From Herpetosiphonaceae bacterium (GTDB lineage Bacteria > Chloroflexota > Chloroflexia > Chloroflexales > Herpetosiphonaceae): 64,000 nt of DNA. The position numbers and the translations under genes were made by a program. Positions 5,544 through 12,141 of the stretch are shown here, piece by piece; the stretch's first letter is position 1, and the number at the start of each line of letters is the position of its first letter. The notes below the pieces were generated by a model. The model was not told the DNA's origin, did not search any database, and saw only the letters and a program-made list of their open reading frames with translations. The stretch spans positions 1 to 64,000 of the forward strand of contig JABXJS010000079.1 in the NCBI GenBank assembly GCA_013538855.1, in the 5' to 3' direction.

Positions 5544-6475
5544 AGGGTTTGTCCGTGCTGCTGCAAGGAAACGGTCGCATCAGCGCCAATCACGCGCACC
5601 TCTAGCTCTAGCTCCACGCCTAGCTGGCGCAGCACCTCGCTGCGCATGATCTCGGCCAGGCGCAGCACATCGGCGGCGGTGGCCCCGCCAACATTGATGA
5701 TATAGTTGGCGTGCTTCGCGGCCACCTGCGCGCCGCCGACGCGGCGGCCTTTCAGCCCGGCCTGATCCAGCAGGAAGCCGGCCGTAGATCCAGGCGGGTT
5801 TTTAAATACCGAGCCGCACGATGAGCCAGCTGGTGTGCGGCTCTTCCGCGCCGCAGCGATCTCGGCGATGCGAGCGGCCAAGCGCTGTGGATCATCGCGC
5901 TGGAGGCGCAGCGTTCCAGCCAGCACCAGCGGCAGCGGCTGACCGCTGCTATGCAGCTGCTTGAGGCGACTCGTGCGATAGCCAAACGCCAGCTGCTCCG
6001 GCGTCCACAGCTCAACTGCGCCGTTAGGCATCAGCATGGTCGCCTCGGCGAGCACCGCCGCCGTCTCGCCGCCGTAGCAGCCAGCATTGCCATAGACCGC
6101 GCCGCCCAGTGTGCCAGGCAGACCCTCGGCCCACTCCAGCCCAGCCCAGCCCTGAGCGGCGACCTTGCGCGCGGTGCCAGCCATGGGCGCGCCTGCACCG
6201 AGCTGGAGCAGCGCCGTGTCGCCAGCGACCGTGAGGTGCTGGGCGTTGGCACGGTAGCGCACGACCAGGCCCGGCCAGCCAGCATCGCTCATCAACAAGT
6301 TGGAGCCGCCGCCAAGCACAAACAACGGCTGATCATGCTGCTGTGCCCAGCGCCAAGCGCGGCGCAGCTCATCGGGGGAGGTGGCGGTAGCGAACCAGCG
6401 CGCCGGGCCACCGATGCGCCAGGCAGTGTAGGGAGCCAGCGGCTCGTGCTCTTGCAGAATCAGTTCAGCGCTCAC
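5540..6475 (-). CDS. murB: UDP-N-acetylenolpyruvoylglucosamine reductase MurB
   Basis: FAD enzyme that reduces UDP-GlcNAc-enolpyruvate to UDP-MurNAc with NADPH, in the cytoplasm. The 311-residue protein shows the FAD-binding VLGGGSNLL (about residues 53-61), GLPGTLGGAVYGNAGCYGGE (118-137), the catalytic serine in SCGSVFKNP (about 219-227) and the AKHANYIIN stretch of type II MurB. A glutamate in LEVRVIG near the C-terminus is a candidate for the second proton donor. It overlaps the preceding TPR gene and the following ftsQ by four bases each, so the three are translationally coupled. Confidence 0.96.
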   Translation of the reverse strand: MSAELILQEHEPLAPYTAWRIGGPARWFATATSPDELRRAWRWAQQHDQPLFVLGGGSNLLMSDAGWPGLVVRYRANAQHLTVAGDTALLQLGAGAPMAGTARKVAAQGWAGLEWAEGLPGTLGGAVYGNAGCYGGETAAVLAEATMLMPNGAVELWTPEQLAFGYRTSRLKQLHSSGQPLPLVLAGTLRLQRDDPQRLAARIAEIAAARKSRTPAGSSCGSVFKNPPGSTAGFLLDQAGLKGRRVGGAQVAAKHANYIINVGGATAADVLRLAEIMRSEVLRQLGVELELEVRVIGADATVSLQQHGQTL

Positions 6476-7749
6476 GCCTGACCTCCTAGATCATTGAGCT
6501 GGCGGCGCAGGCGCTGCTGCTCCTCGTAGTGGCCCAGCTGCTGCCGAATAGCCAGGGCAGCGCTCCAATGCTGCTGGGCAGCGTGGAGATCATTCCAGTC
6601 ATGGGCCAGCGTTCCTAAGCGTTCGTAGATCAAAGCAATCCCTAACTGATCATTGAGCTGCCGGGCATAGTCAAGCGCCTGCGCGTAGTGGTTGCTCGCC
6701 TCGCCATAGTTGCCCAGCTGCTTATAGACATCGCCAAGGCGATTGTGCACCGAGGTTAGCCCGTGCACATTTTGTAGCGAGCGCTCCAGCTGCAGCGCCT
6801 GGCCATAGGCGTCGATGGCGGTTTGCGTATCGCCGCGCACCGTATGGATCATGCCCAGCACTGTGTAGGCGCGGGCCATGCCGACGTTATCGTTGGCTTG
6901 CTGGCGCAGCAGCAGGCTTTCGGCCTGGCAGCGCAGCGCTTTTTCATACTCGCCAAACTCAATATAGGAGAGCGCGAGCTTCTCCTGCACAATCGCAATG
7001 CCGAGAATACCCGGCAGATGCTCTTCGATTTCTAGCGCGCGCTCGTAGTGCGCGGCCGCCCGCTTGCCTGCGCCCAGAATGCGGTAGACATCGCCGATGC
7101 TGGTGATGATCTTCGCGATCGTCAGGCGATCATCGACGACGACCCCTTTCTCGTGGGCAGCATTGTAGTGCTGGATGGCCTCCATATGCCGCCCCTGCAT
7201 CTGCTGTATTTTGCCGAGATGAAACAGCGCCTCGGCCTCCAACAAGAGCAGCTCGTGCTGGCGGGCAATATCAAGGGCGTGCTGCAGCGACTGCTCGGCA
7301 GCGGCAAAGTCAAACAGCGCCCGCTGCGAGCGTCCGAGGGCCAGCCAAGCTGCGCCCTCGGCAGTTGGTCGCTGGGTCTCGTGGGCCAGCACCTGCAGGC
7401 GCTGCGCATAGTAGAGCGCTTCTTCGTGTTGGCCGCCGAAGTCCAGCACAGTCCAGGCCAAGCTATAGGTGCGCAGCGCAAACTGGGCCTGCTCAGCCAG
7501 ACTCAGGCGGCTTAAGTGCTCGAGCGCACGCTCGCACCAAAAGCGCGCCTCGTAGATATTTTGCTGCGCGATGCGCTCCTCTGCCTCATTGAGGGCTGCA
7601 TCGATCGCCTCGGGCCATGATCGTGCCAGCGCCCAATGCCAAGCCAGCACCCCGTAAAATCCCTCGGGCAGCGCCCCGCCCTTGTAGCGCGCCTGGAGCT
7701 GCTCGGCGGCATCGCGGTGGAACTGGCGGTAGGGCTCATCTGCAATCAT
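6472..7749 (-). CDS. Tetratricopeptide-repeat protein inside the mur cluster
   Basis: A 425-residue soluble protein made almost entirely of TPR units; at least eight are readable (for example YNAAHEKGVVVDDRLT, AAAHYERALEIEEHLPG, AIDAYGQALQLERSL and ASNHYAQALDYARQL). There is no signal peptide or catalytic domain. The repeats resemble those of the C-terminal halves of Chloroflexota LuxR/AAA regulators and LGN-like adaptors. It overlaps murC upstream and murB downstream by four bases, so it is made together with these essential enzymes. A scaffold role for the Mur enzymes is possible but is only inferred from position. Confidence 0.85.
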   Translation of the reverse strand: MIADEPYRQFHRDAAEQLQARYKGGALPEGFYGVLAWHWALARSWPEAIDAALNEAEERIAQQNIYEARFWCERALEHLSRLSLAEQAQFALRTYSLAWTVLDFGGQHEEALYYAQRLQVLAHETQRPTAEGAAWLALGRSQRALFDFAAAEQSLQHALDIARQHELLLLEAEALFHLGKIQQMQGRHMEAIQHYNAAHEKGVVVDDRLTIAKIITSIGDVYRILGAGKRAAAHYERALEIEEHLPGILGIAIVQEKLALSYIEFGEYEKALRCQAESLLLRQQANDNVGMARAYTVLGMIHTVRGDTQTAIDAYGQALQLERSLQNVHGLTSVHNRLGDVYKQLGNYGEASNHYAQALDYARQLNDQLGIALIYERLGTLAHDWNDLHAAQQHWSAALAIRQQLGHYEEQQRLRRQLNDLGGQA

Positions 7750-9089
7750 GGCTCCTCCGTGGCTCCCAGGATGCGCTCACCAACGCGCACACCATCGCCA
7801 GCGCCGAGCGTCAGCAGTACGTCGCCAGGCCGCAGCAGGCTGCGCAGGTGCGCAACCGCACTGGTAAGATCGCCCACCGCCTGCACATCCGGGTGCTGCA
7901 TCGTCGCCACAAGCGTCTGGGTGGGATCAGCGGCGGCCGTCTCACGTGCGCCATAGACTTGGCCGATGCGCACCACATCGGCGTCAACAAACGCGGTGCG
8001 AAAATCAGCAGCAAAGGCCTGCAAGCGGCTAAACGTATGTGGCTGAAAGTATACCACCAGCCGTCGATCACCGAAGCACTGCCGCGCCGCAGCCAAGGTT
8101 GCGCGCACCTCGGCAGGATGATGGGCGTAGTCATCGACAACGGTGACACCATCACGCTCGCCCTTTAGCTCGAAGCGGCGCGCCGAGCCGGTGAAGTCCG
8201 CCAGCCCCGCGATGGCGGCGGCGATTGGCACATCGAGCGCGGCACACGCGGCAAGGGCGAGCAAGGCATTGCGCACATTGTGCTCGCCAAACACCCCGAG
8301 CTGAACGTGGCCGACAGCCACGCCGCGATGCAGCAAGGTAAACTGCGCGCCACGGCTGGTGACGCCGATATCGCTGGCGCGCCACTCGTTGTCAGCGCCC
8401 AGCCCGCACCAGACAGCGGGCAGATCAGCGCACACCCGCCGCAGGCCCGGATCATCGCCGCACAGCACTAGCGCGCTGAGGCTGGGGCCAGTGGCGAACT
8501 CGCGGAAGGCCGCATCGTAGTCGGCCTGTGACGGATAGATATCGACATGATCCCAGTCGAGGTTGGTGATCACCGCAATCGCTGGCGTCAGCGCGAGAAA
8601 GGTGCGGGCGTACTCATCGGCCTCCAGCACCAGCACATCCTGGCCCCAGCGCGCGTTGCCGCCGAGCGCTGGCACGCGCGCGCCGATCACAAAGCCTGGC
8701 GCACGACCAGCGCGATCCAAAATCACCGCCGCCATGGCGGTCGTGGTGGTCTTGCCGTGCGTGCCGGTGACGGCCAGCGTTGGGCGTGCGGCGCTCCACT
8801 CGCGCCAGATATCGTGGCGGGTGAGGATGGGAATAGCGCGGGCTTGGGCCGCCAGTAGCTCAGGGTGGGTCGCGGGCAGCGCCGAGGTGACCAGCAGACG
8901 ATCCACACCCTCAAGGTGGGCGGCGCTGTGGCCAACAAAGGTGGTGATGCCCTGGTCGGCAGCAGCAACAAGCGCTGCCGAGCTAGCGCGATCACAGCCA
9001 GAGACCACCTCGCCGCACTCGTGGAGCAAGGTGGCGATTGGGTTCATCCCGGCACCGCCGAGGCCAATAATGTGTGTATGACGGCTCAT
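7746..9089 (-). CDS. murC: UDP-N-acetylmuramate--L-alanine ligase MurC
   Basis: Adds L-Ala to UDP-MurNAc using ATP, the first Mur ligase step, in the cytoplasm. The 447-residue protein has the N-terminal Rossmann motif HIIGLGGAGMNPIA, the intact Mur ligase P-loop GTHGKTTT (about residues 109-116), the central EADEYARTFLAL and ITNLDWDHVDIYP motifs, the GEHNVRNALLALA signature and DDYAHHPAEV. All signature residues are present, in contrast to the MurF-like protein of this cluster. ATGA overlaps join it to the CvpA-like gene upstream and the TPR gene downstream. Confidence 0.97.
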   Translation of the reverse strand: MSRHTHIIGLGGAGMNPIATLLHECGEVVSGCDRASSAALVAAADQGITTFVGHSAAHLEGVDRLLVTSALPATHPELLAAQARAIPILTRHDIWREWSAARPTLAVTGTHGKTTTTAMAAVILDRAGRAPGFVIGARVPALGGNARWGQDVLVLEADEYARTFLALTPAIAVITNLDWDHVDIYPSQADYDAAFREFATGPSLSALVLCGDDPGLRRVCADLPAVWCGLGADNEWRASDIGVTSRGAQFTLLHRGVAVGHVQLGVFGEHNVRNALLALAACAALDVPIAAAIAGLADFTGSARRFELKGERDGVTVVDDYAHHPAEVRATLAAARQCFGDRRLVVYFQPHTFSRLQAFAADFRTAFVDADVVRIGQVYGARETAAADPTQTLVATMQHPDVQAVGDLTSAVAHLRSLLRPGDVLLTLGAGDGVRVGERILGATEEP

Positions 9090-9718
9090 TGTCGCATCTT
9101 CGGTAAGCGGAAAAAGGTTACAACCAGCACAACTAAAAAGAGCAGGGTGAAGATCGTGGGCAGATTGGCGCGCAGCTCGTTGCTCTGCGGTATTGGCGAG
9201 ACAATAATCTGCGCGCCGTCGTCGAAGGGCAGATTAGCGCCGGCGCGATCGCTGGCGACCCAAAAGTCCAGCAGCTTCGACAGCACCAGATAGGCGTTGA
9301 ACATGCCCACCACAACGCCAAAAACGCGCCCGGTGCGTGGTAGCCCCGAGCGGCGGCCAATCGCCGAGCCGACGATGTAGGATAAAAAAGCGCCAACAAT
9401 AAACGCGATCGTCTGATACGTGCTAAAGTTCTCGGCGGTGATGAACGCGCTTGGATCGGAGCGCTCGCCGCCAAACAGCGCATTCAGAAACACGCCAAAC
9501 GCCACAACAATGCGGTTGATCAAACTTGCGATATTGGTTGCCACCGTCTCGTTGGAAAAAAGCAGCAGCGTAAACACCAGCCCAACCGTTGTGATCGCTT
9601 CCTCGCGCCACCCGCGCCGCCAGCCGTAGAAGCCAGCGATCAGGAACACCGGGATCATCAACAACTGCATAAAGTTGAGTTGGATGATCTGTTGCATGAT
9701 GACCAGCCGTTCAAGCAT
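9086..9718 (-). CDS. CvpA-like multi-pass membrane protein
   Basis: A 210-residue integral membrane protein with about four hydrophobic segments, the first near residues 19-30 followed by GFYGWRRGWREEAI, which resembles the start of the CvpA/colicin V production family. Later segments are near 40-55, 100-120, 125-150 and at the C-terminus (TLLFLVVLVVTFF). The short C-terminal tail is basic. GAGGAGG lies upstream of the ATG, inside the end of murG. It is coupled to murC by an ATGA overlap. Function is not known; the CvpA assignment is tentative. Confidence 0.6.
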   Translation of the reverse strand: MLERLVIMQQIIQLNFMQLLMIPVFLIAGFYGWRRGWREEAITTVGLVFTLLLFSNETVATNIASLINRIVVAFGVFLNALFGGERSDPSAFITAENFSTYQTIAFIVGAFLSYIVGSAIGRRSGLPRTGRVFGVVVGMFNAYLVLSKLLDFWVASDRAGANLPFDDGAQIIVSPIPQSNELRANLPTIFTLLFLVVLVVTFFRLPKMRQ

Positions 9719-9722
9719 GAAC

Positions 9723-11015
9723 TCATCCTCCTCGCGCTAACGCCCACCATGCTGCAGCCAAGCGCTGCCGTGAATCCGGCTGCGCCAAGCGGGCGCTATT
9801 GGCGGCCAAGGTCTCGCGGGCCTGTTGATCGGTAAGTAGGCGCTTTAGCTCGCGGCCAAGCGGGCCATCGATCGGCGCTGCCGTGCCCAGCAGCGTATCG
9901 TTATCGAGGCTGATAGCAGCACCACGCCGCACCAGGGCTTGCGCATTGTGCTCCTGCTTGACCGCTGTCAGTGGGATCAAAATAGCCCCCAGCCCAGCGG
10001 CGGGAAGCTCCGCTAGCGTTGAGGCCCCAGCGCGGCAAACAGCCAGATCGGCAGCCCCAAAGGCAGCCGTCATCGAGCGCGAGGAGTCAGCATGCAGGTA
10101 TGGAAACACCTGGTAGCGCGCGGCCAGCGCCGGATCGAGCTGATCACGGGCTGTAGTGAGCCAAGTTTCGTCGCCTTCACGACCACAGACGTGTAGAATA
10201 TGCGCCCATTGTACCAGATGCGGCAAGATTGCTGCGATGGCGCGGTTGATGCTGCGTGCGCCGCGACTGCCGCCGTACACCAGCACCACCGGCAGGTCGT
10301 CGGCGATGCCGAAGGCGGCGCGGCTGGCCTGCCGATCAACGTTGAAGAACTCTGGCCGCACAGGGTAGCCTGTCTCGATCACCTTGTGCGCTGGCAGGTA
10401 CTTTTTTGAGTCGTCGTAGGTCACGCCGATCTGGGTGGCGAGGCGCGCTAGCACCCGCCCAGCCCAGCCGGGCACAATATCCGGCAGGTACAGCAGCGTC
10501 GGCACATGCTCCAGCGCCGCCGCCACAAACAGCGGCACGCAGACATAGCCGCCAGTGCCCAGAATCGCCGCCGGCCGCTCCTGACGAATCAAACGGCGCG
10601 CTGCGCGCACACCACGCAGCAGCGTCAGGCTGTTGCGCGCCATCGCCAGCGGGCCGCGCCCGCGCATCGCCGCAGCAGGCAGCGCAACAAATGGCAGCTG
10701 GGCCTCGCGGGCTACAAGGTCGCCCTCCATGCCCCCAATCGAGCCAACATACAGCAGCCGCACATCAGCGGCGCTCAGAGCGGCGCGGTCGTTCGCTGCG
10801 GCGGGTGGCGCGCTGCTTCTGCGACTCGATGCGCTTGCGCCATGTTCCGCTGAATGAACTGCCGACAGCGAGGCTGCTGGGGAGATCACGCTCGGCAGCG
10901 CGCTCGCCACTGCTAGCGCGGGATACACGTGTCCGCCGGTGCCACCGCCGCATAGCATCAGCAGCGGCGATGACCTGCGGCCGGAGCTGGCCGATGGGGG
11001 GGAGGCTTGCTTCAT
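9723..11015 (-). CDS. murG: UDP-GlcNAc transferase MurG, start embedded in ftsW
   Basis: Peripheral membrane GT28 enzyme that adds GlcNAc to lipid I to make lipid II. The 430-residue protein has the glycine-rich loop GGGTGGHVYPALAVA (about residues 23-37), the second-domain VYGGSRGARSIN motif and the sugar-nucleotide region CRAGASTLAELPAAGLGAILIP. The ATG at 11015 has GAGGAAA eight bases upstream. Between the first helix and the strand VRLLYVG (about 85-91) lies an extra Ala/Ser-rich segment of about 40 residues not found in usual MurG. The first 251 bases overlap the 3' end of ftsW in another frame, and the ftsW stop lies at codon 83-84, at the end of that extra segment. An ATG at 10958 is an alternative start but would still overlap by 194 bp. 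Confidence 0.95.
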   Translation of the reverse strand: MKQASPPSASSGRRSSPLLMLCGGGTGGHVYPALAVASALPSVISPAASLSAVHSAEHGASASSRRSSAPPAAANDRAALSAADVRLLYVGSIGGMEGDLVAREAQLPFVALPAAAMRGRGPLAMARNSLTLLRGVRAARRLIRQERPAAILGTGGYVCVPLFVAAALEHVPTLLYLPDIVPGWAGRVLARLATQIGVTYDDSKKYLPAHKVIETGYPVRPEFFNVDRQASRAAFGIADDLPVVLVYGGSRGARSINRAIAAILPHLVQWAHILHVCGREGDETWLTTARDQLDPALAARYQVFPYLHADSSRSMTAAFGAADLAVCRAGASTLAELPAAGLGAILIPLTAVKQEHNAQALVRRGAAISLDNDTLLGTAAPIDGPLGRELKRLLTDQQARETLAANSARLAQPDSRQRLAAAWWALARGG

Positions 11016-12141
11016 GGGCGATTTCCTCGGCTTGTTTCTGCGGCGCATACCGCGAAACGCTGAGCAACAGGCCCGCCGCAATCATCGTCATCAGCAGCGA
11101 CGAGCCACCATAGGAGATAAACGGGAGCGTGATGCCAGTAAATGGAATCAGGGTACAAACAACGGCGATATTGACCAGCGCCTGCACCACCAGCCAGGTT
11201 GTCACGCCAATGGCGATCAGCGCGCCAAACGGGTCGGTGGAGCGCGCCGCGATGCGGTAGCCACGAATCGCGATCAGAATAAACGCGCCTAGAATGAGCA
11301 GGGCGGCCAAAAAGCCCATCTCCTCGCCGATCACGGCCAGGATGGCATCGGTGTGCGCAAACGGCAGCCAGTTGAATTTTTGGCGGCTCTGGCCAAGGCC
11401 CACGCCAGTCCAGCCGCCAGAGCCAAGCGCATACAGGGCGTGGATCGGCTGATAGCCGCCCTCAAGCGCGTAGTCCCACGGGTTCTGCCAGACCAGCAGG
11501 CGCTGCACACGGTAGCCCGCCGAGTTGATCGCGGCCCAGCCTACCAGCGTAGTCAGCAGCGATGCCACGCCAAGGTGCGTGAGGCTTGCGCCCGATGTAA
11601 ACAAAATAGCGGTGCTAATCACAATCAGCACCACGGTGGTGCCCATGTCTGGCTCCATCAGGACCAGGCCAGCCAGCAGACCAAGCATAATACCAAACGG
11701 CATCAGCCCTGTGACCAAGCGCCGAATCTTCGAGCCACGCCGCGAGAGCCAGTCCGCAAAGTAGATGATCGCGGCAAACTTGGCCACCTCGCTCGGCTGC
11801 AGGCCAACCGGGCCAAGGTAGATCCAGCGCGAGGCACCGTTGGCGTGGGTCAGGCTCTTGGGCAAGATCAGCACAAGCAGCAGCAGCGCAAGCGTGCCCA
11901 GCATCAGCGGGATGGAAAAGCGGCGCAGGTTGCGATAGTCGAAGCGCATCGTCACCAGCAGGCCGATCACGCCGAGCACCGCCCACATTGCCTGGCGCAG
12001 CACCCAGTATGTCGATGAGCCATAGTCAATGTAGGCCACCACAAACGAGGCGCTATACACCATCACGAGGCCAAAGGCGACCAGCCCACCAATCGTGGCA
12101 ATTAATACTTGATCTGGCTTGCGCACATTGCGTTCGTTCAT
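10765..12141 (-). CDS. ftsW: FtsW lipid II polymerase with basic C-terminal extension
   Basis: SEDS-family peptidoglycan glycosyltransferase of the divisome, partner of FtsI. The 458-residue protein has about ten membrane segments, the SEDS signatures GASRWIYLGPVGLQPSE and AHTDAILAVIGEEMGF, and the terminal ITLPFISYGGSSLL. The SEDS core ends near residue 375. The remaining ~82 residues are rich in Arg, Ser and Glu, look disordered, and are encoded wholly inside the 5' part of murG. GGGAGG precedes the ATG. A RodA role cannot be excluded from sequence, but the place beside murG, murD and ftsQ favours FtsW. Confidence 0.93.
   Translation of the reverse strand: MNERNVRKPDQVLIATIGGLVAFGLVMVYSASFVVAYIDYGSSTYWVLRQAMWAVLGVIGLLVTMRFDYRNLRRFSIPLMLGTLALLLLVLILPKSLTHANGASRWIYLGPVGLQPSEVAKFAAIIYFADWLSRRGSKIRRLVTGLMPFGIMLGLLAGLVLMEPDMGTTVVLIVISTAILFTSGASLTHLGVASLLTTLVGWAAINSAGYRVQRLLVWQNPWDYALEGGYQPIHALYALGSGGWTGVGLGQSRQKFNWLPFAHTDAILAVIGEEMGFLAALLILGAFILIAIRGYRIAARSTDPFGALIAIGVTTWLVVQALVNIAVVCTLIPFTGITLPFISYGGSSLLMTMIAAGLLLSVSRYAPQKQAEEIAHEASLPPIGQLRPQVIAAADAMRRWHRRTRVSRASSGERAAERDLPSSLAVGSSFSGTWRKRIESQKQRATRRSERPRRSERR

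Follow-up and report, generated by a model that had tools for sequence, protein, structure and literature searches.

The genes ftsW and murG, both essential in model bacteria, share DNA in the window (the whole 64,000-nt stretch of DNA analyzed here, from a Herpetosiphonaceae bacterium). A first-pass annotation had placed the end of ftsW over the start of murG in a different frame, for about 250 bp, and had proposed that overprinting produced both a tail on FtsW and an insert in MurG. The locus therefore raises the question of whether both frames are used in the shared DNA and which protein each part of it serves. Here, we report that FtsW very probably carries a basic tail of about 92 residues, about 82 of them encoded inside murG, which is selected as FtsW within the MurG insert, with MurG tolerating a floppy loop there.

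Gene pair and shared DNA

The features used below are as follows (positions in the window).

9723 to 11015, minus strand: murG, 430 aa, with its ATG at 11015
10765 to 12141, minus strand: ftsW, 458 aa, with its stop codon at 10765 to 10767 and its membrane domain in residues 1 to 366
10765 to 11015, minus strand: ftsW/murG out-of-frame overlap, 251 bp, in which FtsW codon position 1 is MurG position 3
11016 to 11043, minus strand: start of the FtsW cytoplasmic tail, ahead of the murG start (from domain ends and structure model)
11024 to 11028, minus strand: Shine-Dalgarno-like site of murG (GAGGA), inside ftsW, with a similar site and spacing in 9/9 family members
10887 to 10949, minus strand: MurG GGGTGGH loop and helix 1, within the overlap, with the MurG frame constrained by homology with six Herpetosiphon genomes
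10764 to 10883, minus strand: extra Ala/Ser-rich MurG segment (residues ~45 to 84), predicted disordered, encoding the distal FtsW tail, with the FtsW frame constrained in Herpetosiphon
10834 to 10848, minus strand: FtsW tail motif GTWRK (residues 432 to 436), of which GTWR is common to 9/9 family members

By family and fold, both genes are genuine. FtsW (SEDS glycosyltransferase) matched TIGR02614 (375.9 bits; cut-off, 337.5), and its predicted fold matched FtsW structures 8bh1 and 8p1u (Foldseek). MurG (GT28 lipid II synthase) matched Pfam PF03033 and PF04101 (GT28 N- and C-terminal domains), had 1f0k, 3s2u, and 1nlm as its best Foldseek matches, and scored 234.8 bits against TIGR01133, slightly below the cut-off of 250.25, with a match that begins only downstream of the insert. 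The ftsW gene run holds murF, mraY, murD, murG, murC, and murB and also ftsZ. Its remaining overlapping junctions (murB, murC, a rhomboid gene, murD, mraY, and murF) measure 1 to 4 nt each, so the 251-bp overlap stands out within its cluster. The stretch between murG and murC holds a small membrane-protein-like gene (9086 to 9718, minus strand), and that between murC and murB a gene for a TPR-like repeat protein (6472 to 7749, minus strand).

The murG frame opens at 11081; the ATG at 11015, 66 nt upstream of the GGGTGGH codons, is its best start. An ATG with a Shine-Dalgarno-like site stands at exactly −66 in 9/9 genomes of the window's family (f1); in the sister family (f2), the murG start is uncertain. 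Because FtsW translation terminates 251 nt further on, murG needs its own internal ribosome site; we infer separate murG initiation inside ftsW and translation of the FtsW tail in the window genome, too.

Pfam and TIGRFAM domains of FtsW stop at residue 365 or 366, leaving a tail of 92 residues, of which 82 or 83 are encoded over murG, in agreement with the earlier count of about 82. The tail is presumably cytoplasmic, given the known topology of FtsW. It is predicted to be unstructured (pLDDT, about 40 to 56; no usable fold) and has a net charge of +12 to +23 across f1 and f2. GTWR is present in the FtsW tails of all f1 genomes, and SGGTWRSR forms the FtsW C terminus in four f2 genomes (genus g10).

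On the MurG side, the GGGTGGH loop (residues 23 to 29) lies inside the overlap, as the first-pass annotation had said. The structure model (mean pLDDT, 90.8) has a helix at residues 27 to 44 and a strand at 86 to 92, and the extra segment of about 40 residues sits between this helix 1 and strand 2, at a position where solved MurG structures have nearly nothing; its residues ~51 to 80 are predicted to be disordered (pLDDT, 47 to 49). The ftsW stop had been placed at the end of that segment, and it does coincide with MurG codons 83/84. It stands 10 codons ahead of the MurG GxE motif, just before strand 2, in the six Herpetosiphon genomes, the window genome (G000), G003, and G009, and 11 to 14 codons ahead in most other f2 genomes (21 in G024). 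In G001 (locus L042), FtsW continues beyond the GxE motif. FtsW reaches past the start of the MurG strand 2 region in both G001 and G269 (L154), in the latter without any MurG insert.

Openness of the FtsW frame

Such an overlap could be passive read-through, in which conserved MurG residues together with a high G+C content make stops scarce and the FtsW tail is functionless. MurG was reshuffled synonymously and scored for the FtsW frame staying open. All reshuffles stayed open in G028 (100% over its 56 nt), as did 81% in G027 (over its 83 nt); up to the observed stop, 13% did so in the window genome and about 1% for Herpetosiphon sequences. A stop in the FtsW frame requires a MurG codon ending in T and then a codon starting with AA, AG, or GA, and the MurG codons able to complete it are those of Lys, Asn, Ser, Arg, Asp, and Glu. 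Since GGGTGGHVYPALAV has none of these residues, FtsW should be unable to stop within it; this follows from the genetic code, and the synonymous reshuffles agree. Once the upstream stop was lost, FtsW would have had to continue into helix 1 or further.

Reading of the loop is in this sense automatic, and passive read-through probably accounts for the short overlaps found across most of the phylum, which would be largely passive because MurG loop residues cannot make an FtsW stop. As proof of coding, an open frame was rejected as too weak for the window genome, where 13% is the chance expectation, and the weight therefore rests on conservation and on the substitution pattern.

Constraint on the two frames

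The six Herpetosiphon genomes gave a gap-free alignment across the region, in which MurG position 2 is FtsW position 3 (wobble). Variable sites at MurG positions 1/2/3 numbered 8/158/25 in FtsW-only DNA, 1/0/7 in the loop and helix 1 (7/8 at MurG wobble), 1/21/5 in the insert (5/1/21 by FtsW position; 21/27 at FtsW wobble), and 18/4/107 elsewhere in MurG. A comparison of MurG positions 2 and 3 showed a difference between the insert and the remainder of MurG (Fisher p = 2e-16) and none between the insert and FtsW-only DNA (p = 0.59). With its wobble at FtsW position 3, the insert therefore evolves as ordinary FtsW coding sequence, unlike MurG. Along Herpetosiphon in 60-nt windows, the favored frame was FtsW, then MurG (0 to 59 nt past the loop), then FtsW (60 to 239 nt), then MurG, and constraint switched ~60 to 78 nt past the loop, which is the end of the MurG helix at residues 27 to 44.

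Rate ratios were computed with our own script, following the logic of OLGenie (PMC7531306). FtsW dNN/dSN in the insert was 0.06 (bootstrap, 0.00 to 0.15), and MurG dNN/dNS was 0.21 (0.00 to 0.77) in the loop and helix 1 and 0.26 (0.00 to 2.54) in the insert. The shift toward the FtsW frame recurred in three further pairs, G015-G018 (p = 4e-8) and G021-G024 (2e-4), both of f2, and the window genome with its nearest relative, G003 (1e-4), the f2 and between-genus alignments being gappier than that of Herpetosiphon. Amino acid identity of the insert between the window genome and G003 was similar whichever frame was read (0.45 and 0.41). The strongest codon signal comes from Herpetosiphon and not from the window's genus, of which one species was sampled.

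Passive read-through fits the loop and helix 1, where substitutions follow MurG, but is contradicted for the insert, whose substitutions track FtsW codons in Herpetosiphon and in the three further pairs. Throughout f1, moreover, GTWR is kept in FtsW, though the MurG residue opposite its Thr codon varies. As an account of the long overlap, passive read-through is consequently unlikely.

Judged by its codons, then, this fixed-frame overlap is under FtsW selection in the insert (Herpetosiphon) and under MurG selection in the loop and helix. The earlier suggestion that two essential genes are dual coding here is borne out, with the substitution patterns indicating purifying selection in each frame within the shared DNA, in different segments and not in the same one. 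The FtsW tail appears to be translated and selected, and the MurG insert appears to be largely a passenger.

The reverse assignment, in which the MurG insert has a function of its own (e.g., contact with the membrane or a partner) and the overlap exists on its account, FtsW being the passenger, is less probable still. The ratio of 0.26 for MurG in the insert would suit it, though its bootstrap range is wide, and so would the MurG helix-1/strand-2 loop in several lineages, which is longer beyond the FtsW stop in G059 (L046; a Glu/Arg/Gly repeat), G196 (L172), G126 (L175), and G046 (L059). Because these four loops lengthen outside the FtsW overlap, the MurG loop tolerates insertions independently of FtsW. 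The idea that every MurG insert is due to the overlap is ruled out by the same inserts. Against a driving role for MurG, the segment is predicted to be disordered, and its MurG residues vary about seven times as often as those in the rest of the protein (23/62 versus 15/296 variable amino acids; p = 1.5e-10), whereas FtsW in the insert is not significantly above its core (7/62 versus 21/362; p = 0.16).

Distribution in the order and phylum

In 56/56 readable genomes of the order, FtsW extends beyond the MurG loop, with an identical frame offset between the two genes. Of 29 sampled families outside the order with ftsW adjoining murG, 19 have an FtsW that extends past the loop with that offset, and 10 have one that ends before it; over the phylum, it reads beyond the loop in 23/33 sampled families with ftsW next to murG (in f33, f56, and f57, the loop is spelled GGTAGH and was positioned by eye). 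In 30 loci retrieved from the remaining orders of the class (L089 to L118), ftsW was not found beside murG, in contrast to the window's order. The earlier proposal to compare ftsW-murG junctions in relatives thus yields two results: an overlap past the loop is conserved, extending 47 to 95 nt beyond it in most genomes, and the long form (185 to 254 nt) is mostly restricted to f1 and f2, which are sisters (SH-aLRT, 91). Parsimony required two short/long changes in the tree and put the second on the G048/G016 lineage. Most relatives lack the insert in FtsW and in MurG alike; over the loop and helix, the MurG frame is clearly the older one.

In G280, a genome of family f50 (L132; G280:C1:2440695-2443544), ftsW and murG form a single 757-aa open frame, probably a homopolymer error and not a real fusion, as a G run looks one base short when compared with three f50 genomes.

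That the overlap itself is false, through a sequencing or assembly frameshift or a miscalled murG start, is extremely improbable: a survey of 338 genomes that examined 968 overlaps of >60 bp accepted no real same-strand case and blamed such errors (PMC2478687), and the G280 frame looks like one of them, but the identical frame across the order excludes the frameshift that had been named as a possible refutation, and MurG needs GGGTGGH, where its frame is constrained, so that its start must precede the loop and even the latest possible ATG (10958) keeps 194 bp of overlap.

Origin and possible role

The claim that the FtsW tail and the MurG insert alike arose by overprinting holds in part. Within the insert, FtsW is the constrained frame and MurG follows. 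Over the loop and helix 1, FtsW runs through much older MurG-controlled sequence, across most of the phylum, and an insert needs no overprinting, since the same loop lengthens elsewhere outside the FtsW overlap.

The preferred reading, an FtsW tail selected within a tolerant MurG loop, suggests the following course. An ancestral ftsW stop would have been lost, so that FtsW ran through the stop-free MurG motif and came to an end in the variable loop that follows helix 1. Before f1 and f2 diverged, the MurG loop may then have grown in their ancestor by insertions in multiples of three, which would lengthen FtsW too. The lengthened tail would have become useful and then fixed, and MurG would carry the resulting insert as a floppy surface loop.

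For the tail itself, the role that we would put first, tentatively, is that of a membrane-surface or partner-docking segment. Docking on FtsZ by charge was considered and is not supported, as the FtsZ C-terminal region likewise has a net positive charge (about 10 K/R to 5 D/E) outside a conserved 11-residue peptide, and no clear difference in this region was seen between genomes with the long FtsW tail and families without it. Genomes of f1 and f2 with an ftsZ match have one copy; two or more ftsZ-like genes were seen in f3 (G010, G029, G033, G035, G037, and G039; adjacent) and in several f4 genomes. It is conceivable, though we hold it rather doubtful, that a loop of one essential enzyme hosts a selected domain of another, fixed since the two-family ancestor and inseparable without recoding, and that the tail acts on MurG, tying lipid II synthesis to its use.

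Comparison with known systems

A literature search, with subscription journals and preprints mostly outside its reach, found no prior report of an ftsW-murG overlap in Chloroflexi. The pair offers a natural, replicated long same-strand overlap in two core cell wall genes, with codon-level evidence, and a system for studying how dual coding begins, why it is kept, and whether enzyme loops are by-products of a neighbor's needs. In Chloroflexota, FtsW or MurG may be cut short by gene callers that bar long overlaps.

Asymmetric selection in overlapping prokaryotic genes, with one frame constrained and the other varying, was reportedly described by Rogozin in 2002. The situation here is similar but differs in that the constrained partner switches twice, constraint changing hands at structural boundaries of MurG. 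In stop-loss same-strand overlaps of prokaryotes (PMC3887535, PMC2542354), as here, an upstream gene without its stop enters the downstream gene out of frame; those overlaps are mostly of a few bases, whereas that of ftsW/murG spans 251 bp, keeps one frame across much of the phylum, and has codon support in both frames. The Thermus rnpA-rpmH pair (Feltens 2003, as described in PMC9841429) is a real same-strand overlap and likewise joins two housekeeping genes out of frame, both translated in Thermus, but is nested with one shared initiation site, whereas ftsW/murG is an end-in-start overlap with putatively separate initiation sites. Overprinted de novo overlapping genes in Escherichia coli (PMC2268670, PMC9927249) also place new coding over an older gene; there, the products are new genes, whereas at ftsW/murG an old gene has been extended on the same strand.
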